Of a stretch of 20,961 nucleotides of DNA, positions 563-16,987 are shown one piece after another. A program made the translations under genes and the position numbers. Where the stretch lies: positions 1 to 20,961 of the IMG/VR virus record IMGVR_UViG_3300044802_000093; one strand, given 5' to 3'. The stretch comes from a virus. The notes below the pieces were generated by a model, which did not search any database, was not told the origin of the DNA, and worked only from the letters and a program-made list of their open reading frames with translations. Every line of letters starts with the position of its first letter. The first letter of the stretch is position 1.

Positions 563-1238
563 CATGCTTACGCCTCTGGCGGTCAAGCCGCCAGCGCTTG
601 ATGCTCTTCTTATGTGGGAGCTATCAAATAGGCTAGGGCTGAACAGGAGCGACGATTTGAACCTTAAGCAGCACGAGAATTTCATGCCCGAGAAATTAAC
701 TCGCAACGTTCCATTATCTCAGGTGAAAAAGTGTGAGCACTTGCCGTTGTGTAAGAAAACTATTGCCGGAGTCGATGTGTTCCGCTGCTCTGATCCAATC
801 TATCAGATAGAGCACGAATATACTGAACGGCAGGCGAAGCGGTTTGAATGCGATAAAATGGCACTCATGCTGCGGGAAGATGAAAGAAAATCGTTGCTGA
901 TTGCTTCCGGCCCGTACAAAATGCGTTTCGTTCCTATCCGTGTCATGCTCATTCCAAAGGTGGTTTATTTCTTTCGTGGGGACAAGGTCGAGGTAAGAAA
1001 ATTGCTAAAGGGAGTTTTCGCCATCGGAAAGCATCGGAATATCGGATATGGATACATTAAGAATTTTGAGTTTGAGGAAATGCAGGAAGACTTTTCTGTG
1101 ATTGCAGACGGGGTTTTAATGCGAAGCATTCCTTTTGTGAATGATCCAGCAATCAAGGGCGCTCGTAGGTCATACGGGGCATGCAAACCGCCCTACTGGC
1201 ATCCTGATAATTATATGGAGATTTTAGAACCATGCTGA
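528..1238 (+). CDS. csf3: Type IV CRISPR Csf3 (Cas5-like) protein
   Basis: A 236-residue protein, about the usual Csf3 length. The first beta strand (NWRLTINMLTPLAV) is followed by an ALDALLMWEL helix, as in Csf3 N-termini that read roughly 'P-x-LDGLLA'. The middle has an ASGPYK segment and a strand leading to PKVVYFFRGDKVEVRKLL. The glycine-rich RAMP loop IGKHRNIGYGYI lies at about residues 166-177, and the C-terminus has the KPPYWHPDNY block that I associate with Csf3. Csf3 is the Cas5-like subunit that caps the 5' handle of the crRNA in type IV complexes. The start could be ATG 528 or ATG 534. Both follow a purine-rich AAGAAAGAAG stretch and both keep beta strand 1, whereas ATG 564 would remove it. 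It overlaps csf2 by 35 nt and the cysH-like gene by 7 nt, so all three are one operon. The family call comes from remembered motifs, not a search. Confidence 0.78.
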   Translation: MHMLKNWRLTINMLTPLAVKPPALDALLMWELSNRLGLNRSDDLNLKQHENFMPEKLTRNVPLSQVKKCEHLPLCKKTIAGVDVFRCSDPIYQIEHEYTERQAKRFECDKMALMLREDERKSLLIASGPYKMRFVPIRVMLIPKVVYFFRGDKVEVRKLLKGVFAIGKHRNIGYGYIKNFEFEEMQEDFSVIADGVLMRSIPFVNDPAIKGARRSYGACKPPYWHPDNYMEILEPC

Positions 1239-1975
1239 TAACGTGTGATCGACATAAGCCAGAGGATTTAAAGCATTGGCAAGCGCATGAAACGTGTGAT
1301 TTATATCATTCGGAATCCAAGGGCTTTAAATACCGACTTGATAAAACATTGTGGATTATCAAAGAGTATATGACAAGCAATCGATTTTATTATGTAGGTG
1401 TTTCATGGGGCAAGGATAGTGTTGTTCTTGCTCACATGATTCATACTCTTAAAATCGGGAACCCGTTGTTTGTATATATCAGAATGCTTGACAATGAGAA
1501 TCCATACAGCATTATTGTTAGAAACATTTTTCTTTCAGAGTATGAGATCAATTACAAGGAGGAATCGTATTCATACAAGAATGCACCAGCTTCATGGTTT
1601 AAGAACGGAAAGCCGGTTCGTTGGTATCAGATTTTAAACGAATTGAAATTAAAGCATGGGGCGCATGTTACCGGGATACGCAAGGATGAATCGGCAAAAA
1701 GAAAGATGCGCTTCATCGGGCATGGCAGAGAATCAATAAACAGTTTTGCCCCATTTGAATTTTTTACTGTCAAAGACATATTCGCATATTTACAAATTAA
1801 CGATTTGCCGATACACCCGAACTATGCAATGCTTAGTGGAGGAAGATATGAGCGGGACAGATTGCGTGTTGCCTCACTTGGAAACAAGGAGGGTGACGGA
1901 ATCGGTCGCGCTGAATGGGAAAAGGAATATTACCCTGACATTTTAAGGAAGATTGAAAATCATGTCTCTTACTGA
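1232..1975 (+). CDS. CysH-like PP-loop (PAPS reductase family) protein of type IV-B loci
   Basis: A 247-residue member of the adenine-nucleotide alpha-hydrolase (PP-loop) superfamily. The nucleotide loop is SWGKDS at residues 58-63, preceded by a hydrophobic strand. Further on are GIRKDESAKRK, typical of CysH-like proteins, then the segment FFTVKDIFAYL, then a hPNY and WEKEYYPDI ending. The catalytic cysteine motif of true PAPS/APS reductases near the C-terminus is absent: the only cysteines are two near the N-terminus. Sulfate reduction is therefore unlikely. CysH-like genes of unknown function are a recognised companion of type IV-B csf loci, and this one overlaps csf3 by 7 nt, which supports the subtype. 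It might act as an ATP-pyrophosphatase that modifies nucleic acid or protein (DndC is a relative), but nothing in the sequence shows a substrate. Some phages carry stand-alone versions, so it could also be independent of csf. Confidence 0.8.
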   Translation: MLITCDRHKPEDLKHWQAHETCDLYHSESKGFKYRLDKTLWIIKEYMTSNRFYYVGVSWGKDSVVLAHMIHTLKIGNPLFVYIRMLDNENPYSIIVRNIFLSEYEINYKEESYSYKNAPASWFKNGKPVRWYQILNELKLKHGAHVTGIRKDESAKRKMRFIGHGRESINSFAPFEFFTVKDIFAYLQINDLPIHPNYAMLSGGRYERDRLRVASLGNKEGDGIGRAEWEKEYYPDILRKIENHVSY

Positions 1976-2522
1976 TTCGCTTTCAACATTCCCTGAAGTC
2001 TTCAATGAGCATTATTCAATTTCTCATGCACGTTACGTTTTCTCAAACATGCGTGACCGAGATCCGAAGGCATATGAGGAAAAAAAACTTTCAATACGGA
2101 AGGCCGCAGAATTGCTTAACGTCGATCATAAAACAATTCACCAGAGAATACGCGCCGGACTACTCAAGGTGAAAAAAGAAAAAGCTGAAAATAAATACGT
2201 GAAGCGGATGCTTGTATCTGTTCGCGATCTTGCAGATATGCTCATTCAGAAGCCGCTTAAAGAATGTTCAGGGAAACCAGCGAAGCGATACTCCAAGGAA
2301 GAAATTGAAGAACTGAAAAGAACCGGGAAAGTTACCGGGCGCACTTATGATTCGTATAAAGTCAAGGCGCATCGCCTCGGAATGAAACTGAAAGAAATAA
2401 GAGCGCACGTCGTGTGCGCGGAGCCGCCCGCAGAAAATCAAGGAGCGGAGCCGGTACATCTTACAACAGCCGCGTTACGCAAGGGGCGAAGCACCCACAT
2501 TGCCGAAGCGGCAACGTCGTAA
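1962..2522 (+). CDS. Two-domain helix-turn-helix DNA-binding protein
   Basis: A 186-residue basic protein. ATG 1962 is preferred over TTG 1953 because AAGGAA (1945-1950) lies at a workable distance; it overlaps the end of the cysH-like gene by 14 nt. Residues 43-70 (LSIRKAAELLNVDHKTIH) look like a MerR/excisionase-type helix-turn-helix. Residues 110-143 (YSKEEIEELK ... DSYKVKAHRLGM) resemble the Myb/GcrA-type three-helix unit, where the last helix usually reads 'K-x-HRLGL'. The last 20 or so residues are read out of the attC-like inverted repeat starting at 2461, so this tail is probably not an evolved domain. In the csf operon it could be a regulator, or it could be the last gene of a cassette. 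I do not recognise it as any Csf/Cas protein, although an unusual accessory role cannot be excluded. Confidence 0.7.
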   Translation: MSLTDSLSTFPEVFNEHYSISHARYVFSNMRDRDPKAYEEKKLSIRKAAELLNVDHKTIHQRIRAGLLKVKKEKAENKYVKRMLVSVRDLADMLIQKPLKECSGKPAKRYSKEEIEELKRTGKVTGRTYDSYKVKAHRLGMKLKEIRAHVVCAEPPAENQGAEPVHLTTAALRKGRSTHIAEAATS

Positions 2523-2543
2523 CACGGCATACGTTGTTTGTAA
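2461..2543 (+). repeat. attC-like imperfect inverted repeat A
   Basis: An outer ACAAC (2463-2467) pairs with GTTGT (2533-2537). One unpaired base separates it from the inner arm GCCGCGTTACG (2469-2479), which pairs with CGTAACACGGC (2518-2528) with one mismatch; a four-base spacer (ATAC) precedes the right outer box. The loop holds a second perfect hairpin, TTGCCG-AAG-CGGCAA (2500-2514). Outer boxes ending AAC and starting GTT, inner arms, unequal spacers and a variable terminal loop are the layout of integron attC sites. The outer boxes do not match the classical RYYYAAC/GTTRRRY consensus beyond AAC/GTT. The plus-strand gene ends inside the element, as cassette genes often do. Its loop resembles that of repeat B at 3642, so the two are homologous. 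Confidence 0.6.
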
Positions 2544-2557
2544 TACCGGGGCAGAGC

Positions 2558-2570
2558 GAATTTATAGGCG
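2558..2570 (+). repeat. 13-bp direct repeat, left copy
   Basis: GAATTTATAGGCG occurs here and again exactly at 4576-4588, about 2 kb apart. The two copies lie just inside the attC-like element A and at the end of the methyltransferase gene, and so bracket the GC-rich block. It may be a remnant of an insertion or of cassette shuffling. Confidence 0.6.
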
Positions 2571-2581
2571 CGCCCCAAAAC

Positions 2582-2603
2582 AAAAAGCCCGCATCGTGCG
2601 GGC
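2582..2603 (-). terminator. Intrinsic terminator of the minus-strand operon
   Basis: Read on the minus strand, a perfect 7-bp GC-rich stem (GCCCGCA / TGCGGGC, 2587-2603) with a three-base loop is followed directly by five T. It lies 23 nt downstream of the last minus-strand stop codon at 2627, where a rho-independent terminator of that operon is expected. Confidence 0.85.
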
Positions 2604-2626
2604 CAGAAGAAAAAAAATGAATAACT

Positions 2627-2779
2627 TTACTTTTGCTTATCTTTGCGCTTGGCCTCTCTCGCCGCACGCATCTTTTTATAGTGTTCTGAGTCGCCGCGAC
2701 TTTTTGACTCTCCGGTTCCGGCTTCTCCACCTTTTCGCCCGATTTCTGCTAGATACTTTTTTATCGGCGTTGTTGTCAT
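2627..2779 (-). CDS. Small basic protein, 50 residues, GRKGG type
   Basis: The protein begins MTTTPIKKYLAEIGRKGG and continues with GTGESKSRGD, a YKKMRAARE segment and a lysine-rich end. Short basic proteins with an 'IGRKGG' segment followed by a charged helix occur on proteobacterial plasmids and phages; their function is unknown. The ATG at 2779 is 3 nt from the stop of the upstream gene (2783), and GGAG lies 11 nt before it. It is the last gene of a three-gene minus-strand operon ending in the terminator at 2582. It could be a nucleic-acid-binding protein. Without homologues at hand I base the call on operon position, ribosome site and terminator spacing. Confidence 0.6.
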   Translation of the reverse strand: MTTTPIKKYLAEIGRKGGEAGTGESKSRGDSEHYKKMRAAREAKRKDKQK

Positions 2780-2782
2780 TTG

Positions 2783-3025
2783 TTAATGAGCTCCTTCGAG
2801 GCACTCTCGGAGTGTCTCAGGCTTGCGTGTCCACGCAGCTTCCCAAACCGAGTAGCAATCCTCGCGGGTATCAAAATCTTTGCCGTCCAGTCGCAGGCTT
2901 GTGCTTACGCTCGATCCTCCTTGCGATGCATCGCGGTAGCCGTGGACGAGGCGAGCCTTGCCCGCCTCGAATGCTTGTTGAATCTCCTCGCGTGTCACTG
3001 TCTCGCCGTCTCGTGTCAGGTACAT
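2783..3025 (-). CDS. Hypothetical protein, 80 residues
   Basis: The sequence begins MYLTRDGETVTREEIQQAFE and has a REDCYSVWEAAW segment near the C-terminus. No domain is recognised. The start is well supported: AAGGAGG lies 5 nt before the ATG, and the ATG overlaps the stop of the upstream zinc-ribbon gene at 3025. The protein appears soluble, with one cysteine and several tryptophans. Similar small proteins seem to occur in proteobacterial mobile elements, but I cannot name a family. As the middle gene of the cassette operon it should be co-expressed with the zinc-ribbon protein and the 50-residue basic protein. Confidence 0.7.
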   Translation of the reverse strand: MYLTRDGETVTREEIQQAFEAGKARLVHGYRDASQGGSSVSTSLRLDGKDFDTREDCYSVWEAAWTRKPETLRECLEGAH

Positions 3026-3477
3026 CAGTCCTCCTTGGTGTAGGGTGTATTGTCGGGTCTGTCGGATGCTCTATCTTGCATTGCGGTGTGCTCGCCTGCG
3101 CCGATCTGCGTGAGCAGTTGGCGGCACGAGTCACAGTAGTAGGTGGTCACCTTACCGTATCTGCTGTTCTCGGTCTGGCGATAGGCGTCGTGGCCTACGT
3201 GCTCGCCACAACGCTCGCATTTGCGGTGGGCGTCAGCCTCAGCCTCCATGCGTGCATTATCAGAGGCTATCTGTGCCTCGTCGCGGTGGTCATGCTCGGC
3301 AATCACCCGGATAATCTCGGCCATCGGCTTGGCCTTGAGCGCGGCCTGCATGAGAGACATCGGCGCCTTGCTGCCGATGAAACAGATCCCCGCGGTCTGG
3401 TGCTCGATCTCAAGGATACATTGCGCTATCTGACCTTTTGCCGCTCTTGCCTGGTCGAGTGTTTTGTAAGTGTCCAT
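3025..3477 (-). CDS. Zinc-ribbon hypothetical protein, 150 residues
   Basis: The N-terminal half is helical and begins MDTYKTLDQARAAKGQIAQC. The C-terminal half has a four-cysteine zinc ribbon made of CERCGEH and YYCDSCRQL, about 30 residues apart, and then a charged tail. AAGGAGAG lies 4-9 nt before the ATG, and a near-consensus promoter is 43 nt further up, so this is the first gene of the minus-strand operon. The function is unknown; a DNA- or RNA-binding regulator, possibly binding its own promoter, is a reasonable guess. Base composition is clearly GC-richer than the csf and phage genes around it, pointing to a separate origin for this cassette. Confidence 0.75.
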   Translation of the reverse strand: MDTYKTLDQARAAKGQIAQCILEIEHQTAGICFIGSKAPMSLMQAALKAKPMAEIIRVIAEHDHRDEAQIASDNARMEAEADAHRKCERCGEHVGHDAYRQTENSRYGKVTTYYCDSCRQLLTQIGAGEHTAMQDRASDRPDNTPYTKED

Positions 3478-3519
3478 TTTGCTCTCCTTTGGGTTTTGAT
3501 CTCTTTTGCCTACACCTTA

Positions 3520-3548
3520 AATATAACACAAGCTGCTTGCGTTGTCAA
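3520..3548 (-). promoter_or_regulatory. Sigma70-type promoter of the minus-strand operon
   Basis: On the minus strand TTGACA (3548-3543) and TATATT (3525-3520) are separated by exactly 17 nt. The spacer contains the palindrome CAAGC-A-GCTTG, a plausible operator. It reads into the AAGGAG and ATG of the zinc-ribbon gene at 3477. Confidence 0.85.
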
Positions 3549-3641
3549 TACTTATTTTAATTATTTTTTTGAGGGTAATTCATGGGCCGTCCTGGCCCAC
3601 AAAAGAGGGGCGCGCAGGACATTGCGGAGTGCCCCGGTACA

Positions 3642-3723
3642 GCAAACAACAGCGCCATGCTGCAAGGGCTAAAGCCACATGCCGGAGGAACCGGCACGTC
3701 AGCATAGCGCAAACGTTGTTTGC
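3642..3723 (+). repeat. attC-like imperfect inverted repeat B
   Basis: The outer boxes GCAAACAAC (3642-3650) and GTTGTTTGC (3715-3723) are perfectly complementary. One unpaired A follows the left box, and the inner arm GCGCCATGCTG (3652-3662) pairs with CAGCATAGCGC (3700-3710) with one mismatch; the right spacer is AAAC. The loop begins CAAGGG, has AAGC and CCACAT, then a hairpin (TGCCGG / CCGGCA) and ends ACGT. This matches repeat A piece by piece, although the hairpin itself differs. Such conservation of arms and spacers with divergent stem sequence is what recombination sites folded as single strands show. The methyltransferase gene starts 23 nt after the right box, as a cassette gene would. 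Confidence 0.65.
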
Positions 3724-3745
3724 AATTACGCCGGAGAGCGTTATT

Positions 3746-4585
3746 ATGATTGCGCCCGAAATACAGCCCTTTCTTAACACCGTGATTCACGGCGATTGCT
3801 TAGAGGTTATGGCGCGGCTGCCAGGAGAATGCGTCGATATGATTTTCACAGATCCACCATACGGCCACGGAAACCACGACGGCGACTGGAACGAAAGATT
3901 AAACAACCATCGTGGCATTGAAAATAAACCAATCGGCAACGATGACGCGGAGAGTATGCGCCGTGTGGTTTCAGGCATGCTTACACATGCAGCGCGGCTC
4001 CTAAAGAGCGACTGCTGCTGCTGCTGCTGCTGCGGCGGCGGCGGCGGCGGCCCAAAGCCGACCTTTGCGTGGGTAGCCCAGCGCATGGATGAAGGCGGCT
4101 TGTCGTTCTTTCATAGCGTTATCTGGGATAAGTGCAACCCCGGCCTTGGCTGGCGTTATAGGCGGCAGCACGAAATGATTATGGTCGCTCACCGTGCCGG
4201 GGGCCGCCTTCGCTGGGCAGACGAAACCGTCACGCAAAGGAACATTCTAACAATGTCGCCGCCGCGAGACCGCGAACACCCAAACGAGAAGCCTCTTGCG
4301 CTCGTTCGGCGTTTCATCGAGCTGCACACACTCCCCGGCGATGTGGTTCTCGATCCGTTCGCGGGCAGCAGCACAACAGCCATTGCATGCATCGAGCTTG
4401 GTCGCAATTTTATTTGCATTGAACAATCCGCGCAATACGTGGCCGTGAGTAAGCGACGCATTCAGGAGGCAGCCGCAAAAACAAGCCTTTTCGAGCCGGG
4501 CGCAATATTCAAGGAGTCCGGCGCAACAGTCAAACAACAGCAGCAGTACGAAATGCCGCTGGATATTTTGGAAAAGAATTTATAG
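3746..4585 (+). CDS. DNA adenine/cytosine-N4 methyltransferase with poly-Cys/poly-Gly tract
   Basis: A 279-residue SAM-dependent amino-methyltransferase of the N6_N4_Mtase type. The catalytic motif TDPPYGHG is near residue 35, and the SAM-binding DPFAGSSTTAIA motif near residue 205 is followed by GRNFICIEQSAQY. DPPY before FxG is the order of the beta class. Between them is a run of seven cysteines and six glycines, encoded by (TGC)7(GGC)6 at 4013-4051; related phage methylases have a similar Cys/Gly run there as I recall, so it may be functional. The start at ATG 3746 has GGAG 9 nt before it; an open frame continues upstream through the attC-like element but lacks a start signal. No restriction gene is adjacent, so it is probably an orphan enzyme that protects or marks DNA. 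GC-rich codon use sets it apart from the phage genes. Confidence 0.9.
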   Translation: MIAPEIQPFLNTVIHGDCLEVMARLPGECVDMIFTDPPYGHGNHDGDWNERLNNHRGIENKPIGNDDAESMRRVVSGMLTHAARLLKSDCCCCCCCGGGGGGPKPTFAWVAQRMDEGGLSFFHSVIWDKCNPGLGWRYRRQHEMIMVAHRAGGRLRWADETVTQRNILTMSPPRDREHPNEKPLALVRRFIELHTLPGDVVLDPFAGSSTTAIACIELGRNFICIEQSAQYVAVSKRRIQEAAAKTSLFEPGAIFKESGATVKQQQQYEMPLDILEKNL

Positions 4586-4588
4586 GCG
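4576..4588 (+). repeat. 13-bp direct repeat, right copy
   Basis: An exact copy of the 13-mer at 2558-2570. It includes the stop codon of the methyltransferase gene and lies 2 nt before the hairpin of the degenerate third cassette site. Confidence 0.6.
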
Positions 4589-4590
4589 GC

Positions 4591-4619
4591 ACGTTCGTAC
4601 ATGCTGCGAACGTTGGTGT
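4591..4619 (+). repeat. Degenerate third attC-like site / hairpin
   Basis: A perfect 7-bp stem (ACGTTCG 4591-4597, CGAACGT 4607-4613) with a 9-nt loop ends in GAACGTTGGTGT. The right end aligns with the right boxes of repeats A and B (ACGTTGTTTG) and is followed by a similar CCGG stretch. The left half does not match. It may be a decayed or much shortened attC-like site closing the methyltransferase cassette, or simply a terminator-like hairpin without a T run. Confidence 0.35.
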
Positions 4620-4662
4620 AAACTCCGGTCGCTCTAAAACACGTATTGAAAGGCGGCGCTAA

Positions 4663-4782
4663 GTGGACTTAACAAAGGTTTATCACGATCAGGATGGATT
4701 GAGCGGAAATATACTCCAAATTGTCAGGCGTGAGCCTGAGTGGGCGGCGAATCGTGTTCAGCATAACGCCGAGGCCTTTTAA
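4663..4782 (+). CDS. Possible small protein, 39 residues, GTG start
   Basis: A short frame beginning GTG-GAC-TTA, with AAGGCGG 6 nt upstream. The product reads DLTKVYHDQDGLSGNILQIV, then RREPEWAANRVQ and an acidic end. 'EPEWAANR' resembles a segment I have seen in small phage hypothetical proteins, which is the main reason for listing it. It lies just right of the degenerate cassette site and before the leader region. It could be a fragment of a longer protein. No function is suggested. Confidence 0.4.
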   Translation: MDLTKVYHDQDGLSGNILQIVRREPEWAANRVQHNAEAF

Positions 4783-4789
4783 TAAGCAG

Positions 4790-4817
4790 TTGTTTTTAGC
4801 TATGCGTTAATTATATT
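4790..4817 (+). promoter_or_regulatory. Weak candidate promoter
   Basis: TTGTTT (4790-4795) and TATATT (4812-4817) with a 16-nt spacer, in an AT-rich stretch upstream of the replication operon. A small inverted repeat, GTATCC/GGATAC (4825-4846), follows at the expected transcript start. Confidence 0.35.
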
Positions 4818-4848
4818 ATTAGGTGTATCCTCGTCGCACGGGATACGA

Positions 4849-4877
4849 TTGCAAAAAGGCACAGAATGAAGTATATT
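4849..4877 (+). promoter_or_regulatory. Promoter of the replication operon
   Basis: TTGCAA (4849-4854) and TATATT (4872-4877) with a 17-nt spacer, the same boxes and spacing as the promoter at 8629. Transcription would start near 4884, ahead of the hairpin at 4901 and about 90 nt before the initiator gene. Confidence 0.6.
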
Positions 4878-4900
4878 ACCATCGTAAATCGTTTTACCAT

Positions 4901-4953
4901 AACCCCTGGAGGATGGGCTATTGTGCCAGCCCGGCGACCCTTCAGGGGTTTTT
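4901..4953 (+). terminator. Nested hairpin with T run (terminator or attenuator)
   Basis: The outer stem AACCCCTG (4901-4908) pairs with CAGGGGTT (4943-4950) and overlaps a TTTTT run. The inner stem GGGCT (4915-4919) pairs with AGCCC (4928-4932). It can stop transcripts coming from the cassette block. Because it sits downstream of the promoter at 4849 it may also work as a leader attenuator for the replication operon. No known riboswitch class is recognised. Confidence 0.55.
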
Positions 4954-4975
4954 GTCGTTTATAGGGGGATGAAAA

Positions 4976-5953
4976 ATGGATGAACACCGAGGATTTAGGG
5001 GTATTTGGATACCAAAGGAAATTTATTTAGACGAAAGGTTGGATGCTAACGAAAAAATTCTATTCTCTGATATTTATTCTCTCTCGGATGAAAAAAAGGG
5101 TTGTTTCGCTTCAAATGAATACTTCGCTAAGTTTTTAAAGGTTAGCGACCGGCAAGTTCAGAGATATATCTCAAATTTAAAAAAATACAACCTCATTTTA
5201 CAGACCAATTTTGATGGCAGGCAACGATCTTTGATATGTAATTTTAGATACGACATGGGTGTCGTGTCTGCTATGACAAAAATGGCAAATCCCTTACTAT
5301 TAGATATAAATAAAGAAAGAAAAGGAAAGAAAGTTTCTTCTTTAAAGAAAACTTCTGAAAATAGTAAATATTTGCTCTTATCAGAGTACCTTCTTAAAAA
5401 AATCAAAGACTCAGGCACAGATGCAGTTTTCAAAGAGAGCGATTTAGGTAAATGGAATAATCAATTTCGGCTTATGATCGAACAGGACAAACGCACTGAG
5501 GAACAGATTCGATCTAAGGTTGACGCTGTTTTCGAAGACCAATTTTGGAGCAAGCAGATACGCAGCGCCGGCACATTGCGGGAAAAGTGGAAATTAGGGC
5601 GCTTAGATGGTCTTGGGGACAGCAAAAAGTCTGAAGCCGCTGATGATAACGAAGAAACCGCACCAGAAGCTCCTAAAACTCCTTTTCAGAGATTTAAGGG
5701 CAACACGACCCTAACCGACTCTGAGGTGGTTCTAAATTACCTGTATCGACAATGGGAGGCGATTTACGGGGACAAGGGATGGCAGGATTACAATTTCCCT
5801 GATGCAGACTCAAAAAATGAGGCGCTTTATCGGGAAATTTGGGAAGTTTATCGAGACATAAAGGACAAAAAACAAGCTTTCGAAGAAATATTGAAGCGGT
5901 TTAATATCAAAAAGGATGAAATGGGATCGAGTGTTGAAAATGAAGAATGGTGA
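4976..5953 (+). CDS. Phage replication initiation protein with N-terminal HTH
   Basis: A 325-residue protein. Residues 5-90 form the winged helix-turn-helix common at the N-terminus of phage replication (O-like) proteins: a GIWIPKEIYLDERLDANEK segment, then CFASNEYFAKFLKVSDRQVQ and RYISNLKKYNLI. The central part is charged and low in complexity, and the C-terminal third (from about residue 225) is a second helical domain that probably contacts the helicase. Such proteins bind the phage origin and help load DnaB, encoded next. GGGGGA lies 7 nt before the ATG. The gene overlaps the helicase gene by 14 nt. It ends with ENEEW; the helicase and the SNF2 protein also end in EEW. The role is inferred from the HTH type and the neighbour; no origin iterons were found inside the gene. 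Confidence 0.78.
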   Translation: MDEHRGFRGIWIPKEIYLDERLDANEKILFSDIYSLSDEKKGCFASNEYFAKFLKVSDRQVQRYISNLKKYNLILQTNFDGRQRSLICNFRYDMGVVSAMTKMANPLLLDINKERKGKKVSSLKKTSENSKYLLLSEYLLKKIKDSGTDAVFKESDLGKWNNQFRLMIEQDKRTEEQIRSKVDAVFEDQFWSKQIRSAGTLREKWKLGRLDGLGDSKKSEAADDNEETAPEAPKTPFQRFKGNTTLTDSEVVLNYLYRQWEAIYGDKGWQDYNFPDADSKNEALYREIWEVYRDIKDKKQAFEEILKRFNIKKDEMGSSVENEEW

Positions 5954-11332: not shown

Positions 11333-11525
11333 TATTGAGGTACTTAGGTTCTACGAAAATTATTTGGCAGTAAAATCGGGTCGGGGAAGATTAGAGGTGC
11401 CCGATTCTGAGATTTTAAGATATACGCTTCATAGGGCATTTGAGGCGGATCGAAAAACATTATCTAAGTGTGATTATAATATCATGGCAGAGGCAGAAAT
11501 ACCACTTACGAGGAGTAAAAGATGA
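11265..11525 (+). CDS. Hypothetical protein, 86 residues
   Basis: A soluble, mostly helical protein, beginning MSRQKKVPISEARMVLLTIL and containing LEVPDSEILRYTLHRAFEAD. AGGAG lies 13 nt before ATG 11265 and GAAG directly before it; ATG 11305 is a shorter alternative that would reduce the overlap with the upstream small frame. Its stop overlaps the ATG of the beta-helix gene (ATGA), which supports the frame. No family is recognised. Confidence 0.6.
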   Translation: MSRQKKVPISEARMVLLTILAGDIEVLRFYENYLAVKSGRGRLEVPDSEILRYTLHRAFEADRKTLSKCDYNIMAEAEIPLTRSKR

Positions 11526-12313
11526 ATACTAAGAGCAAAGTTAAGTTGTGGTTGAGGGACGAAAAGAATGAGTGGCAATTGTTCGAGAAAGATTCTCTTG
11601 GGGATTTTGCAGATGAGTTTAAGAGTAGGAATATAGGCATCGGTGATCGTTCGAGCATCGGTAATGGTTCGCGCATCGGTAATGGTTCGAGCATCGGTGA
11701 TGGTTCGCGCATCGGTAATTATTCGCGCATCGGTAATTATTCGAGCATCGGTGATGGTTCGCGCATCGGTAATTATTCGCGCATCGGTAATTATTCGCGC
11801 ATCGGTAATTATTCGAGCATCGGTGATCGTTCGAGCATCGGTGATCGTTCGAGCATCGGTGATGGTTCGAGCATCGGTGATGGTTCGAGCATCGGTGATG
11901 GTTCGCGCATCGGTAATTATTCGCGCATCGGTAATTATTCGAGCATCGGTGATGGTTCGCGCATCGGTGATGGTTCGAGCATCGGTGATGGTTCGCGCAT
12001 CGGTAATCGTTCGAGCATCGGTGATCGTTCGAGCATCGGTGATCGTTCGCGCATCGGTGATGATTCGCGCATCGGTGATTATTCGCACATCGAGAAAACC
12101 TATGATTGCGTGGTTGTTGGGCCTATTGGTTCTCGTGATTCGTATACTACGTTTTACAAAGATAAAAAGACAATTATGGTAATTTGCGGTTGTTTTAGTG
12201 GGGATATTGTGGCTTTTGAAGAGAAGGTTTTGGGAGTTCACAAAGAAAATTCAGATCATCGTAGAGTATATATAGCCGCGTGTTTATACGCAAGGTCGGT
12301 CATTCAATTGTAG
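11522..12313 (+). CDS. Hexapeptide-repeat (left-handed beta-helix) protein
   Basis: A 263-residue protein in three parts. Residues 1-39 are a charged N-terminal cap (KLWLRDEKNEWQLFEKDS). Residues 40-189 are 25 uninterrupted hexapeptides of the form I-G-[DN]-[GYRD]-S-[RSH], the periodicity of the left-handed parallel beta-helix known from acyltransferases; 25 hexads would give about eight triangular turns. Residues 190-263 are a C-terminal domain with VVVGPIGSRDSY, ICGCFSGDIVAFEEKV and a helix ARVY-like end, a domain I associate with hexapeptide-repeat phage proteins. No acyltransferase active-site histidine is visible in the helix, so a scaffold or binding role is more likely than catalysis. 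AGGAG lies 5 nt before the ATG. It sits in an early/middle operon before the ParB-like gene, not in the tail module. Confidence 0.85.
   Translation: MNTKSKVKLWLRDEKNEWQLFEKDSLGDFADEFKSRNIGIGDRSSIGNGSRIGNGSSIGDGSRIGNYSRIGNYSSIGDGSRIGNYSRIGNYSRIGNYSSIGDRSSIGDRSSIGDGSSIGDGSSIGDGSRIGNYSRIGNYSSIGDGSRIGDGSSIGDGSRIGNRSSIGDRSSIGDRSRIGDDSRIGDYSHIEKTYDCVVVGPIGSRDSYTTFYKDKKTIMVICGCFSGDIVAFEEKVLGVHKENSDHRRVYIAACLYARSVIQL
11639..12088 (+). repeat. 25 tandem 18-bp coding repeats
   Basis: The unit ATCGGTGATGGTTCGCGC recurs 25 times with no gap. Differences are confined to three codons: GAT/AAT (Asp/Asn), GGT/TAT/CGT/GAT (Gly/Tyr/Arg/Asp) and CGC/AGC (Arg/Ser, with one CAC). The other codons (ATC, GGT, TCG) are invariant even at third positions, which suggests recent expansion or gene conversion. 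All other frames are open as well because the unit is a multiple of three. Confidence 0.95.
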
Positions 12314-12321
12314 GGGATATT

Positions 12322-12732
12322 ATGGACGGACAAATGAATATTGAGACAAAAACCAAATTGATGAGGAAGTTCGGTAAGGCTTTGGGTAATGTTGTTTTCG
12401 TGGTTCAGGTGAAGGCGGGAATAGCACGGGTTAAGCTTGGAAAGAAAATAGTTGTCATTAATTGCCCGGATCGGCCGGCGGCTGAAATGCTCGCCGGGGG
12501 TCTTAACCAGGTACTTAGAAGCAATCAGGAGCAAGTGAATTTGATTCTTGATTTGCTGAGTAAAAAATGTGAGCAGCTTTCGTTAGAAACAATTCTATTC
12601 CCCACTTCAAAGGATGGAAAAGATGAGACTCCAGGACATGGCGACGAGCCGGAAGGACCAGTTCTTGATACCGATGGAGCTGTTGGAGGAGGACGGGACA
12701 CAACCGAGGCAGGACTTTTCGAACATACCTGA
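12322..12732 (+). CDS. Hypothetical protein, 136 residues
   Basis: Two regions: residues 1-80 form an alpha/beta segment with beta strands VVFVVQVKAGIARVKLGKK and IVVINCPDR, followed by AAEMLAGGLNQVLRSNQEQV. From about residue 95 a Gly/Asp/Glu-rich disordered tail runs to the end and overlaps the start of the ParB-like gene by 110 nt. AGGGG 5 nt before ATG 12322 fixes the start; an in-frame ATG at 12280 lies inside the previous gene and has no ribosome site. The function is unknown. The fold may be a small dimeric domain, and the association with the ParB-like protein is by overlap only. Confidence 0.7.
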   Translation: MDGQMNIETKTKLMRKFGKALGNVVFVVQVKAGIARVKLGKKIVVINCPDRPAAEMLAGGLNQVLRSNQEQVNLILDLLSKKCEQLSLETILFPTSKDGKDETPGHGDEPEGPVLDTDGAVGGGRDTTEAGLFEHT

Positions 12733-13423
12733 TCTTGCGATTTCGCTTTTTAACGCAGGTCAGCTTGAGGCTTGCGAAGTCAGGTTAGTCGGGGATAAGG
12801 CGGTTTTCACCAATGGAGCCAGACGTTTCAGGGCCGCTAAGTACGTTAATGACCATTATGTAGAGTGGACAAAGCAAGGGGCAGTTGGGGTCCGGTTTGA
12901 TGCGCTTTTGTGTAAGGCAGAGCCCAAGAATCTATCTGCGGATGAGCGGCTTATGCGACAGATTCAACAGGGCGGAGAAAACCTTTCCCTTCCGCTCAAT
13001 GCGCTTGAACTCGCGAAGGCGTACAAGCGGCTCATGGATGTTGGCTGGACCTTTGCAAAGATAGGCCAGAGGGTAGGTAAGAGTGCGCAGCAGGTTTCCA
13101 ATACTATGAGCCTTATCGATGCCCCGAAGGAGTTGCAGGACGCGGTTGAGAGTGGGAACATGTCCGCGACTGCCGCTGCCAAAGCCACCAAAGCTACGCC
13201 AGAGAAGCGACAGAAGGCCGTGGACAAGGTTAAGGCCGGGGAGAAGGTCCAGGTCAAGGATGTGTCCGAGTACGTTCCCCTTGGCCTTGATAAGGCCCGT
13301 AAGGTGATTCAAAGAGCGGATAATTTTAGGGCGGCGGCACAATCCAAAACTGAGGAGGCTCGCTGGGAAGGTGTGGTTCATGGAATTCAAATCGGTGTTG
13401 GTCTTCGACCGGTTGAATTTTAG
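12623..13423 (+). CDS. ParB/Spo0J-like DNA-binding protein
   Basis: A 266-residue protein. The ParB N-terminal domain has a DGTQPRQDF segment, VFTNGARRFRAAKY (the GxRR CTP/DNA-binding motif, residues 65-72) and LMRQIQQGGENLSLPLNALE, equivalent to the 'N-x-x-R-x-L-x-P-x-E' region. A KorB-type helix-turn-helix follows: ALELAKAYKRLMDVGWTFAK, then IGQRVGKSAQQVSNTMSLI. The C-terminal third is Ala/Lys-rich, with TAAAKATKATPEKRQKAV, and ends with a short dimer-like region. Phage ParB-like proteins serve in plasmid-like partition, transcription control or as nucleases; no ParA is visible in the window, so regulation is likelier here. ATG 12623 has AGG 9 nt upstream; 12614 and 12638 are alternatives. 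It overlaps the preceding gene by 110 nt. Confidence 0.85.
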   Translation: MRLQDMATSRKDQFLIPMELLEEDGTQPRQDFSNIPDLAISLFNAGQLEACEVRLVGDKAVFTNGARRFRAAKYVNDHYVEWTKQGAVGVRFDALLCKAEPKNLSADERLMRQIQQGGENLSLPLNALELAKAYKRLMDVGWTFAKIGQRVGKSAQQVSNTMSLIDAPKELQDAVESGNMSATAAAKATKATPEKRQKAVDKVKAGEKVQVKDVSEYVPLGLDKARKVIQRADNFRAAAQSKTEEARWEGVVHGIQIGVGLRPVEF

Positions 13424-13424
13424 T

Positions 13425-13595
13425 ATGACGAAAAGAATAACTTGCCATTATGAGCTGGTTATTAATTGCCCTGCTATTGACAGAAAGTTGCCAGAAAGGG
13501 TAATTTTCTGTTTAAGGGAGAGAAAAACGGTTGACCGGATTTGGTGTCGGCATGTTTGCAGGGAACGCGGTAAATATATTAACAAGGGAGGCTAA
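13425..13595 (+). CDS. Small Cys/Arg-rich protein, 56 residues
   Basis: The protein begins MTKRITCHYELVINCPAIDR and ends with IWCRHVCRERGKYINKGG. Cys and His residues (C7, H8, C15, C31, C43, H45, C47) could bind zinc. The ATG is 1 nt after the ParB-like stop (TAG-T-ATG), so translation is probably by re-initiation; there is no clear ribosome site of its own. A longer in-frame version would start inside the ParB gene and is less likely. No family is recognised. Confidence 0.55.
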   Translation: MTKRITCHYELVINCPAIDRKLPERVIFCLRERKTVDRIWCRHVCRERGKYINKGG

Positions 13596-13597
13596 GA

Positions 13598-13738
13598 ATG
13601 GAAATTCTTAATGGAGTAGTTGTCCTGATGCTGGCGGTAGCTTGTGTGATTGTTACCGTTCAGTTAAACGAGATTAAGCGGCTCAGGGGTTTGGTTCAAA
13701 TCGAAAGGCATTCGGCGAGGGAGTGGCAAGGAACCTAA
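13598..13738 (+). CDS. Small single-span membrane protein, 46 residues
   Basis: A hydrophobic helix GVVVLMLAVACVIVTV (about residues 6-21) is followed by a charged cytoplasm-type tail, QLNEIKRLRGLVQIERHSAR. A very good ribosome site, AAGGGAGG, lies 7 nt before the ATG. It could be a small membrane anchor or a host-interaction protein; holins usually have other features, and no lysis genes are adjacent. It is the last gene before the tRNA. Confidence 0.7.
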   Translation: MEILNGVVVLMLAVACVIVTVQLNEIKRLRGLVQIERHSAREWQGT

Positions 13739-13766
13739 AGCTCATGAGCCCTGTTCTCCTGAAATT

Positions 13767-13840
13767 CCGGGCTTGGCCCAGTCTGGTAGGGCACTTGCCT
13801 TGGGCGCAAGGTGTCATCGGTTCAAATCCGGTAGCCCGGA
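13767..13840 (+). tRNA. tRNA-Pro (anticodon UGG)
   Basis: A full cloverleaf can be drawn. Acceptor stem CCGGGCT (13767-13773) pairs with AGCCCGG (13833-13839). The D stem is GCCC/GGGC with AGTCTGGTA loop. The anticodon stem CTTGC/GCAAG (13794-13798, 13806-13810) has loop CTTGGGC, giving anticodon TGG at 13801-13803. The T arm is ATCGG-TTCAAAT-CCGGT, with one T-G pair. The discriminator base is A (13840). No CCA is encoded, so the host nucleotidyltransferase must add it. Confidence 0.95.
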
Positions 13841-13891
13841 AGTTAAAAAAGAGAAGGTAGAACAACTGAGCCTATTTTAAGGGGAGGAAAT

Positions 13892-14080
13892 ATGCCGAAT
13901 GACTCATTAGGGGTTATGGTGCAGGTCCGTTGTAGTTGCGGCAAGAGGCTGATGAAGAACGCCAAGGGTAATGTTTGGTGCTCAGGCTCGGAATGCAACT
14001 TTCATATCCGGGACGGCCGGGTAATAACACCGAAAATGATCGATGATTTGAGCAGAAGGGGCGAAGGAGATAATGAATAA
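13892..14080 (+). CDS. Small zinc-ribbon protein, 62 residues
   Basis: The protein begins MPNDSLGVMVQVRCSCGKRL and has VWCSGSECNFHIRDGRVITP. Two pairs of cysteines (CSCG at 14-17 and CSGSEC at about 30-35) make a compact zinc ribbon of the kind found in topoisomerase/primase tails and small phage proteins. AAGGGGAGG, 5 nt before the ATG, is one of the best ribosome sites in the window, so expression is probably high. Its stop overlaps the next ATG region by 8 nt. Confidence 0.75.
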   Translation: MPNDSLGVMVQVRCSCGKRLMKNAKGNVWCSGSECNFHIRDGRVITPKMIDDLSRRGEGDNE

Positions 14081-14424: not shown

Positions 14425-15015
14425 GTGAATCAAGCAGGCCACAAGCGAGATCCAGCGGACGGACTTACTACATCCGAAAGAAATTTTTGTTATGCCTATT
14501 TGTTAAGCGGAGATCAAAGGAAATCCGCCAAGCTTTCGTTTAAGTGTAAAACCAATACCTATGCGGATCAAAGAGGTTGGCAGGTTTTAAGGCGTCCGCA
14601 GGTCACGCAGTTTATTGCTAAGTGCCGGGCTGAAATGATGGGTGGAACTGCCGCGGTCAACGAGCAGGGCCGGAAAATTATCGCAGAGCTTGCCATTCTT
14701 TGTTTTTCTGATCCACGGAATTACGTTGATGCTCTTGACCTTCCCGATGAAACCAAAAAAGCAATCAAAAAACTTGGTCCCGAAGCTAAGGCTATTTCAG
14801 AGATAGAGGTAGAGGAGAGAACGGTAGGAGAAGGAAAGGAAGCCCAAAAGGTACGGAAGGTTAGGTTTAGATTCCATTCAAAGGTGACCGCCTTGCAATT
14901 GCTTGGGAAGCACCATAAATTGTATTCTGAGCAAAATATTCCTTCAGATAACCATGTTTCACCAGGAGTTTATCAACTTCCCGATAATGGTATGGGCCCA
15001 AAGATAAATGAATGA
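14425..15015 (+). CDS. terS: Terminase small subunit
   Basis: A 196-residue protein with a helix-turn-helix region of the Terminase_2 (P27/xtmA) kind at the N-terminus: LTTSERNFCYAYLLSGDQRK, AKLSFKCKTNTYADQRGWQV, LRRPQVTQFIAKCRAE. The middle has IIAELAILCFSDPRNYVD, and the C-terminal part has KVTALQLLGKHHKLY, typical of this family. It recognises the packaging site and assembles the large subunit. The start is GTG 14425 with AAGGTGG 5 nt upstream; the nearby ATG 14423 is out of frame. It overlaps the large subunit by 8 nt. The length and motif order are standard. Confidence 0.93.
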   Translation: MNQAGHKRDPADGLTTSERNFCYAYLLSGDQRKSAKLSFKCKTNTYADQRGWQVLRRPQVTQFIAKCRAEMMGGTAAVNEQGRKIIAELAILCFSDPRNYVDALDLPDETKKAIKKLGPEAKAISEIEVEERTVGEGKEAQKVRKVRFRFHSKVTALQLLGKHHKLYSEQNIPSDNHVSPGVYQLPDNGMGPKINE

Positions 15016-16987
15016 GCTGATGATAGAGCGCCCCCAGGTTGGCCCGCAGGAGTGGTTTTGTGCTACAAGGGCGACGATAGCGATAGCTGGCGGGACGTTC
15101 TTCTCAGGTAAGAGTATTTCTCTTCTTATGGAGGCGGGCAGAGGGGTAAAGCACCCGAAGTATCGGGGATCAATCTTTCGTAGAACATACCCGCAGATTA
15201 CCGACTCCGGTGGACTTGCCGATATAGCTTCGAATATTTATCCACAAATGGGTGCAGTTCCCACAAAGGATCGTTGCTTATGGACTTTCCCGAGTGGGGC
15301 TTTTATAAAATTCAACCATATGCAGCACGACTCGAATATGGTGAATTACCGGTCATCTCAATTCTGTTTTCTTGGGATAGATCAGGTAGAGGAATTCCCT
15401 GAAGAGGCATTCTTTTATTTAAGGGCAAGGAATAGACCGGCGCCAGGGTACACGGGGCCAGCGTATTGTCGTTGCACATGCAATGCAGAGCCAGGGTGGC
15501 TTGCGGATTTAATTCGTTGGTGGTGGCACCCCGATAGCGGGTATCCTATAAAAGAGCGATCGGGGGTTATTAGATATTTTATTCGAAAAGACGGAAGGAT
15601 AATTTGGGTTGATAAGAGCTACAAAGATGGTGATATAAAACCAATTTCATTTACATTTATTCCCTCTATGGCTAAGGATAATCCAAAAGGATTAGAGTCC
15701 GACCCGAGCTACGAAAGCAATGTTGCCACAATGGATGGAGTTTCCGTTGAACGATATCTAAGAAATAATTGGAAGATAAGTTATTCAGGTGGAATGTTTG
15801 AGGCAAAATGGTTTAAAAAGATCAAGATGTCTGAGCTCCCAAAGGGGATTCGAAAAATGCGGTATTGGGACTTTGCCGCGACTGAAGCGAAGGATGGGAA
15901 AGACCCTGCATGGACCGCAGGGGTTGAGTGTGGGGAGTTCGCGGGTGACTTTTATATCATCGATGTTAAGAGATTTAGAGAAGCTCCGGGGACTACCGAA
16001 AAGAGGGTAATCGAAACCGCCAAGGAGGATGGTCCTGATGTTTCTATTCGTTGGGAAGAAGAAAAAGGAAGTGCAGGAAGGTTTACCTCTCATTTTTTAA
16101 GTGGAAAACTTCTTGGGTTTGACGCTCAATCCGATCCGGTATCAGGAGATAAGATCCTAAGGGCTCGACCCTTGTCTTCAGCAGCTTCAAACGGCAGGGT
16201 GTTTATTGTTGAAGGCTCATGGAATGATGCCTACACGAACGAGGCTGTTGCCTTCAGAGCTGAAGCCAGGTATAAGGACCAAATCGATGGAACTACAGGA
16301 TGTATGAAGTGTCTTTGTACTGAGCGGAGGGTATGGCCTACTTTTTCAATATCAAAGACAATTCCTTTTGCTATAAATTGGGATCAAACATCAACTTCAA
16401 CCATTGTTTATGGTTGCTATTTCCAGAACAGAAGTAATACGGTTTATTTCTTAGCGGCTTTATGGGATTCCTTAGAGGGTAAGCTTTGGGTATACAAAGA
16501 GAAAAGATATGAAGCCATAATTCCCGAGATAATATGTTCCGATGCCGTTAAGTCTATGAGGATAGGTAAGATAGCAAATATAAGGATTTTGGGTAACGAG
16601 GCTTTTGTATCTGAGTCGGGAAACAGGAGTACTTGTAGGGTAATAGGTAAGTGTTTTAGAGAGAACGCCTTACAGTGGAATCCAAGCATTCCGGTGCTCT
16701 ATGAGATGTATGGAGCCATTAATTATGCGAATGCTTTATTTTCTACCGAGCCATCAAGCATAGAGGTACATAAGGTTGTTATAGAAGCGGCGGCTCAGTT
16801 TGGGGGATGGGGGTACAAGGATGGTGATAAGGCGCCTACCGATGGGTTTGAATACGCCCAATGTCTTTGTTTGATTGTGAGTGACCTAAGGAGGCAGATG
16901 AGTACAAAGAAGAAGGAGTTCAAGGTTCAGGACTACCATGAGAAGGAAGAGCCCAAAAAGGAACGTGCAGTATGGCAGACAGCGTAG
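15008..16987 (+). CDS. terL: Terminase large subunit with extra C-terminal RNase H-like domain
   Basis: A 659-residue DNA-packaging motor. The ATPase has Walker A GGTFFSGKS (28-36), a Walker B strand LGIDQVEEF and a C-motif region. The first nuclease domain has MRYWDFAAT (near 285), RWEEEKGSAG and KDQIDGTTGCMKCL (about 422-435), the acidic pattern of the Terminase_6C RNase H fold, where most such proteins end. The chain then continues for 220 residues with a second similar pattern: PFAINWDQTSTSTIVYG (near 455), PEIICSDAVKSM (near 510) and TDGFEYAQCLCLIVSDLRR (near 611). No stop or frameshift separates the parts. It may be a fusion or duplication. ATG 15008 overlaps the small subunit. The first domain is certain; the second is an inference from spacing of Asp residues. 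Confidence 0.93.
   Translation: MNELMIERPQVGPQEWFCATRATIAIAGGTFFSGKSISLLMEAGRGVKHPKYRGSIFRRTYPQITDSGGLADIASNIYPQMGAVPTKDRCLWTFPSGAFIKFNHMQHDSNMVNYRSSQFCFLGIDQVEEFPEEAFFYLRARNRPAPGYTGPAYCRCTCNAEPGWLADLIRWWWHPDSGYPIKERSGVIRYFIRKDGRIIWVDKSYKDGDIKPISFTFIPSMAKDNPKGLESDPSYESNVATMDGVSVERYLRNNWKISYSGGMFEAKWFKKIKMSELPKGIRKMRYWDFAATEAKDGKDPAWTAGVECGEFAGDFYIIDVKRFREAPGTTEKRVIETAKEDGPDVSIRWEEEKGSAGRFTSHFLSGKLLGFDAQSDPVSGDKILRARPLSSAASNGRVFIVEGSWNDAYTNEAVAFRAEARYKDQIDGTTGCMKCLCTERRVWPTFSISKTIPFAINWDQTSTSTIVYGCYFQNRSNTVYFLAALWDSLEGKLWVYKEKRYEAIIPEIICSDAVKSMRIGKIANIRILGNEAFVSESGNRSTCRVIGKCFRENALQWNPSIPVLYEMYGAINYANALFSTEPSSIEVHKVVIEAAAQFGGWGYKDGDKAPTDGFEYAQCLCLIVSDLRRQMSTKKKEFKVQDYHEKEEPKKERAVWQTA

Follow-up and report, generated by a model that had tools for sequence, protein, structure and literature searches.

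A probable integron-type gene cassette array with hairpin sites of distinct geometry in phages

The Array and Its Surroundings

The window, meaning the whole stretch of 20,961 nucleotides analyzed here, comprises positions 1 to 20,961 of the IMG/VR virus record IMGVR_UViG_3300044802_000093. The record begins inside a type IV Cas locus: positions 1-1975 hold a partial Cas7 gene, a Cas5 gene, and then, immediately before the array, a PAPS-reductase (CysH-like) gene, for whose product no relatives were found in phages. The array itself is composed of three hairpin sites, E1, E2, and E3, and two complete cassettes (Table 1). G+C content is approximately 0.40-0.45 outside the array and 0.52-0.60 inside it, and this abrupt shift is expected if the cassettes were acquired. 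No attI-like array start was recognized within the window.

Cassette 1 carries three small open reading frames (ORFs) on the opposite strand, and no relatives of their proteins were found in phages or plasmids; relatives of the 189-aa helix-turn-helix protein encoded upstream were also looked for, and none were found. The left end of cassette 1 is 88% identical to L008 1645-1736, beginning at the R' box. Its leader and trailer form an imperfect 44-nt inverted repeat, and in many cassettes leader and trailer are imperfect inverted repeats (TACCGGGGCA / TGCCCCGGTA) that enclose unrelated cargo.

Cassette 2 carries a DNA methyltransferase gene. Its product and the methyltransferase of L010 4978-5892 share a stretch of seven consecutive cysteines and then four to six glycines (CCCCCCCGGGGGG), although the DNA there is only about 67% alike. 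Elsewhere in the window, positions 11522-12313 hold an ORF of about 25 head-to-tail 18-nt repeats (SSIGDGSRIGN...) that encodes a hexapeptide-like repeat protein, and a similar repeat stretch lies at L006 13558-14014. The terminase large subunit gene (15008-16987) has its best phage-record match in Methanoculleus virus L4768/Blf4 (38%), which makes an archaeal or unusual host possible.

Table 1. Coordinates of the array and adjoining features in the window. An arrow marks the crossover point.
Feature	Position	Strand	Basis and remarks
189-aa helix-turn-helix/excisionase-like ORF	1953..2522	+	3' end runs into E1
E1, attC-like site	2461..2539	+	Model R1 (trained without the window) 23.9 bits, E 4.4e-4; R'' TTACAAC, R' GTTGTTT; ↓GTT at 2533
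Cassette 1	2533..3714	+; genes on opposite strand	Borders from sites (E1 ↓GTT to E2 ↓GTT)
Leader AATACCGGGGCA...TTTATAGGCGCGC	2542..2576	+	Directly 3' of R' box; common to other phage cassettes
50-aa ORF, cassette 1	2627..2779	-	ORF listing
80-aa ORF, cassette 1	2783..3025	-	No Pfam or PHROG match
150-aa ORF, cassette 1	3025..3477	-	No Pfam or PHROG match
Trailer GGGGCGCGCAGG...GAGTGCCCCGGTACA	3607..3641	+	Just 5' of R'' box; conserved in other phage cassettes
E2, attC-like site	3644..3721	+	Model R1 29.7 bits, E 1.7e-5; R'' AAACAAC, R' GTTGTTT; ↓GTT at 3715
Cassette 2, DNA methyltransferase cassette	3715..4611	+	Borders from sites (E2 ↓GTT to E3 ↓GTT)
N6/N4 DNA methyltransferase gene	3746..4585	+	Pfam PF01555, N6_N4_Mtase 4.8e-34; stop codon inside E3
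E3, attC-like site	4532..4618	+	Model R1 53.6 bits, E 2.4e-11; AAACAAC-A-GCAGCA-GTACGAA ... TTCGTAC-a-TGCTGC-GAAC-GTTGGTG; ↓GTT at 4612
Phage backbone right of array	4790..4970	+	82% shared with L006, whose cassettes at this place are different

Structure of the Sites

A first-pass annotation had proposed two attC-like hairpin elements at 2461-2543 and 3642-3723 that enclose a cassette. Both are present, with the model boundaries given in Table 1, and both follow the plan it described: a CAAC box, one base (A), an L'' arm, a loop with inner hairpins, an L' arm, a four-base spacer, and GTTGTTTG. The 189-aa ORF terminates within E1 as stated, and the methyltransferase ATG lies about 23 nt beyond E2. 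The two sites do enclose a cassette; overlooked was E3, which is a better hairpin than either.

In single-stranded DNA folding, the minus strand forms the stable fold of E1 (z -5.1) and E2 (z -7.1), with none of 200 shuffles as good. In each, position 5 of the arm is a C.A mismatch on the top strand (G.T on the bottom), with no bulge. A de novo hairpin scan by itself gives E1 no significance, its score of 11 being reached in 56% of whole-window shuffles, and the score of 14 for E3 is reached in 1%. E2 has a 97.5% identical copy in another phage contig, at L229 12912-12989. An Rfam search returned no match in the array region and only a tRNA in all, and none of the three window sites fits the R boxes RYYYAAC / GTTRRRY.

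The covariance model R1 was built with an imposed structure from ten aligned sites of relatives in other phages, with none from the window. Pairing in its inner stem is 95.8%, both partners have changed in 9 of 12 pairs, and its covariation score was matched by 0 of 500 shuffles. Sliding the partner by 1-3 columns loses the pairing, a test biased in favor of the structure because that structure was taken from the same sequences. The held-out window sites are an independent test of the model: in the window, R1 matches E1, E2, and E3 exclusively, and the next best match has an E value not below 3.9. Covariation in the relatives and these held-out matches together bear out the earlier view that pairing is kept although the stem sequences differ.

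The family collected here comprises 73 sites, each an imperfect palindrome in which AAC/GTT boxes (R''/R') surround L''/L' arms; the arms covary and the boxes stay fixed. On the left, the layout is R'' NNNCAAC, one base (A in 68/73), and a 6-bp stem; after a second stem and a variable top, the right half carries a G/A bulge on its arm, a four-base spacer whose last base is C, and R' GTTGNNN. C is the base before GTT in every site. Where a site is bulged, the extrahelical base lies on the L'-R' (right) arm in 40 of 43 cases and on the left arm in 3. Spacers measure 1 and 4 nt in 52/73 sites, and the R boxes fit RYYYAAC in 10/73 and GTTRRRY in 7/73. The gene-complementary strand folds better in 56/73 sites, as do attC bottom strands. 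Rho-independent terminators were considered and rejected, as the sites run on into GTTGNNN-GCAAT without a T run.

Distribution and Cargo

The search for the same repeats outside the window, which the first-pass annotation had recommended, found approximately 20 further phage contigs in IMG/VR with the same sites. Scanning IMG/VR for the sequence 3' of the R' box gave six further phage contigs, a second scan gave three near-identical ones, and a pattern scan combined with R1 gave eight more array contigs with 49 sites; another contig was added later. A first viral pattern drawn from E1/E2 identities had returned three chance matches in unrelated genes and was discarded, and the matches in L003-L005, L013, L015, L016, and L018 are likewise chance pattern matches.

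Arrays range from 1 to 17 or more sites, all in one orientation within an array, with a median spacing of 360 nt. With both contig ends counted, 3300031999_000047 carries no fewer than twelve sites, and one of the eight contigs from the pattern scan, 213 kb long, carries a terminase. In L229, two same-orientation arrays (814-5815 and 12094-13985, minus) flank a DnaB-containing backbone block. At the same locus, just upstream of shared sequence, L006, a relative of the window phage (DnaB 93% identical, DNA approximately 80%), has two such sites and a different set of cassettes.

Among scanned cassette proteins at least about 170 aa long, most are DNA methyltransferases, and these belong to four Pfam families (N6_N4_Mtase, MT-A70, Dam, and the C5 family DNA_methylase); radical SAM proteins also occur. 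Most other cassettes contain one ORF of 40-120 aa.

In favor of dispersed hairpin repeats of the REP or MITE type, independent of cassettes, are the repetition of hairpins of approximately 80 nt and the inverted repeat around cassette 1. However, all strong R1 matches lie in one-orientation arrays between short ORFs, the window holds just its three array sites, and no transposase was seen. The dispersal at non-cassette places that the first-pass annotation had named as part of its own refutation was thus not found, and such repeats are an extremely improbable explanation.

Movement of the Cassettes

In an all-against-all comparison, similarities begin at the R' box. The clearest case is the pair 3300031999_000047 and 3300031707_000086, whose backbones are 99.6% identical. 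Two cassettes of 349 and 272 nt are 100% identical between them, but their order is exchanged and other cassettes separate them, while a four-cassette block of 1.8 kb is present in one phage and cleanly absent from the other. The breaks fall at ↓GTT, and borders between near-identical phages begin exactly at GTT, which agrees with recombination at G↓TT of the R' box. That phages so nearly identical should differ by cassettes ending exactly at ↓GTT indicates that recombination is recent and site-specific. These comparisons show that the cassettes, read in the direction of the genes, are moving now as R'-to-R' units. At the clean deletion junction, the spacer differs between L220 9560-9571 and C11 4065-4076 (GAAC vs TTCC; AGAAC vs ATTCC, a three-base difference).

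Homologous recombination of the RecE/ERF type at conserved leaders and trailers, with the hairpins as mere terminators or RNA structures, was weighed as a source of the same exchanges. A RecE-like exonuclease is encoded in 3300031999_000047, conserved leaders and trailers flank different cargo, and the hairpins sit between genes. Against this, moved cassettes share about GTTG at their ends (C11 4070/5868 vs L220 9565), which is too little for homologous recombination; junctions recur at the same G↓TT; and neither the missing T run nor the covarying arms and fixed boxes suit such a role for the hairpins. Phage homologous recombination is therefore very unlikely to account for the arrays.

The position of the bulge would, by the VCR rule, predict the opposite reading to the R'-to-R' movement observed. 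Reading the sites as canonical attC on the other strand, where the bulge would lie on the left, was rejected because the moved cassettes are bounded by the right-hand GTT and hold a whole gene with its stop codon, so that reversal cuts genes. Some similarities stop instead at the left box (E2 vs L229; trailers), and a canonical R' crossover leaves these unexplained; perhaps the left box is also used, or the interior evolves fast. All six array starts read TA↓GTTG with no hairpin site upstream, and this sequence is a candidate attI-like site.

Search for a Recombinase and a Host

The first-pass annotation saw no integrase, and this holds for the array-bearing contigs searched. PF00589 had no match in 18 of them, with all 14 control genomes positive. 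Neither TIGR02249 nor an IntI protein query matched the array-bearing records searched, which for IntI included two contigs beyond the PF00589 set, and no Zn-ribbon serine recombinase was found in 7 records. The arrangement of a complete integron, with intI beside attI and the array, was accordingly not found. Contig 3300031999_000047 starts within the tail of the array and finishes within its head, and so covers nearly all of the phage genome. Among its genes are those for the terminase small subunit, portal, capsid, protease, DnaB, and RecE, and it has no PF00589 match. That no integrase was found in a genome so nearly complete suggests that recombination most likely occurs in trans, as has been argued for CALINs generally (PMC9668308).

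Bacterial genomes bearing the sites were also sought. The leader had 0 matches in GTDB contigs, and the site pattern occurred in 0 of 398 Pseudomonadota genomes; R1 found 0 of 400 in Chloroflexota under stricter filters and without a positive control, which shows little. On both strands, R1 matched nothing near 160 integrases (2.1 Mb), of which 80 are viral loci (1.1 Mb) and 80 are genome loci (1.0 Mb), mostly from beta- and gammaproteobacteria. It also matched nothing in class 1, TJE1, or Rctr41k arrays. In IMG/VR, 270 viral contigs encode integron-integrase relatives, many of them 50-60% identical to IntI1 (loci L114-L193); some may be mis-binned bacterial DNA, and a survey of phage-borne integrons looks worthwhile.

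Comparison with Known Systems

Canonical attC sites (class 1 aadA1, VCR) resemble the present sites in their two inverted box pairs, unpaired spacer, variable hairpin top, and stabler bottom strand. They differ in the arm that bears the extrahelical bases, in spacer lengths (~5/5 vs 1/4), and in box consensus. Extrahelical bases of canonical attC lie on the R''-L'' arm (PMC2727003), and class 1 attC controls run through the same scoring script had the bulge on the left in all cases and spacers of 5-7. The sites appear, from the cassette borders, to work like attC; since three defining canonical features are lacking, they are not filed as attC.

Integrase-less arrays with methyltransferase cargo have been published as CALINs on the phages TJE1, P12002L, and PH101 (Qi et al. 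2023, PMC9892861), so a phage location is not in itself new. These CALINs also share AAC/GTT hairpin sites and crossover at G↓TT with the present family, and IntI1 recombined 5 of the 6 phage attC sites on which it was tested (PMC9892861). The present family is distinguished by arrays of up to 17 or more sites, the mirrored bulge, and the 1/4 spacers, whereas the TJE1 attC (L029 1016-1075), with spacers of 7/6, carries its extrahelical base on the R''-L'' arm and is not matched by R1.

Virus Rctr41k (KX853513) is similar in carrying a phage-borne cassette array with methyltransferases, but it has its own IntI-like integrase (45% to IntI1) and left-arm bulges. Besides this integrase, annotated as xerD, the region L031 4680-10100 contains two methyltransferases and a canonical attC array. 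Rctr41k probably carries a complete integron, absent from table 1 of Qi et al. 2023.

Cryoconite phages, in the passages of Bellas et al. 2020 considered here (PMC7468147), offer another parallel: near-identical phages have interchangeable genes in flexible gene modules or metagenomic islands, and DNA methyltransferases are the most frequent. Those passages put the exchange down to general recombination and describe no site-specific mechanism. New here are the size of the family, the evidence that near-identical phages have recently shuffled cassettes, and the distinct geometry of the sites.

The reading of the locus as attC-like and CALIN-like stands in outline, with conserved-structure sites, cassettes as units, one orientation, and no integrase. 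It does not stand as to canonical attC, given the bulge arm, the spacers, the R boxes, and the lack of R1 matches near the sampled integrases. An array of at least two sites without a neighboring integrase, as in a CALIN, is observed, and its sites fail the canonical attC tests.

An ordinary CALIN would consist of canonical attC cassettes from a bacterial sedentary integron, their shape being attC variation, that are moved by a standard host IntI. Several features point this way: AAC/GTT boxes that read AAC-A at the left and C-GTT at the right, like those of class 1 attC; cassettes that each hold a single small gene ending within the site; a few exact matches to GTTRRRY (L008 763-850); and the acceptance of published phage CALIN sites by IntI1. 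Yet the extrahelical base is on the wrong arm, spacers and R boxes depart from the canonical form, and R1 finds no such sites near the 160 integrases sampled. Moreover, inverting the extrahelical bases of VCR lowers IntI1 bottom-strand recombination approximately 2.8e5-fold (PMC2727003). An ordinary CALIN is accordingly an unlikely explanation.

Proposed Mechanism

Positions 2461-4618 probably belong to a phage-borne array of integron-type gene cassettes whose recombinase would be supplied in trans. Each cassette would consist of a gene, such as the methyltransferase, or of three small opposite-strand ORFs, followed by a hairpin recombination site. While the phage DNA replicates, a tyrosine recombinase of the integron-integrase type, provided by the host or a co-resident element, would fold a single strand of the site and exchange it at G↓TT, the partner being either another site or an attI-like TA↓GTTG at the array start. 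The geometry of the family, with the base on the L'-R' arm and spacers of 1/4, means that this enzyme must read the hairpin otherwise than IntI1 or VchIntIA. Three results count against this explanation: none of the integrase-associated attC sampled shares the geometry of these sites; some similarities stop at the left box; and neither a recombinase, in the array contigs searched, nor a site-bearing bacterial genome, among GTDB contigs, Pseudomonadota, and Chloroflexota, was found.

A further reading is a separate phage cassette-shuffling system, with mirror-geometry sites, a recombinase other than the known integron integrases, and attI-like TA↓GTTG entry, dedicated to swaps of methyltransferase and small counter-defense genes. 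Its recombinase may be phage-encoded outside PF00589 or come from an unrecognized host. Such a system is considered unlikely.

Under the preferred reading of an integron-type array served in trans, the benefit to the phage would be fast swapping of DNA methyltransferases against host restriction. An anti-restriction role is the natural reading of these methyltransferases as judged by their families and by comparison with orphan phage methyltransferases (PMC9892861; PMC7468147). Shuffling of this kind would be under way in likely lytic phages in which no integrase of their own was found.

Biological Meaning

Strand choice by extrahelical bases is the central rule of integron recombination. In the sites described here, which make up a large natural family, the bulge lies on the arm bearing the observed crossover box, which makes both the strand-choice rule and the enzymes testable. 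Integron-type shuffling of methyltransferase cargo in these phages would supply a concrete mechanism for the quick exchange of counter-defense genes between phages, and a reservoir of cassettes that would be missed by standard integrase-based surveys.
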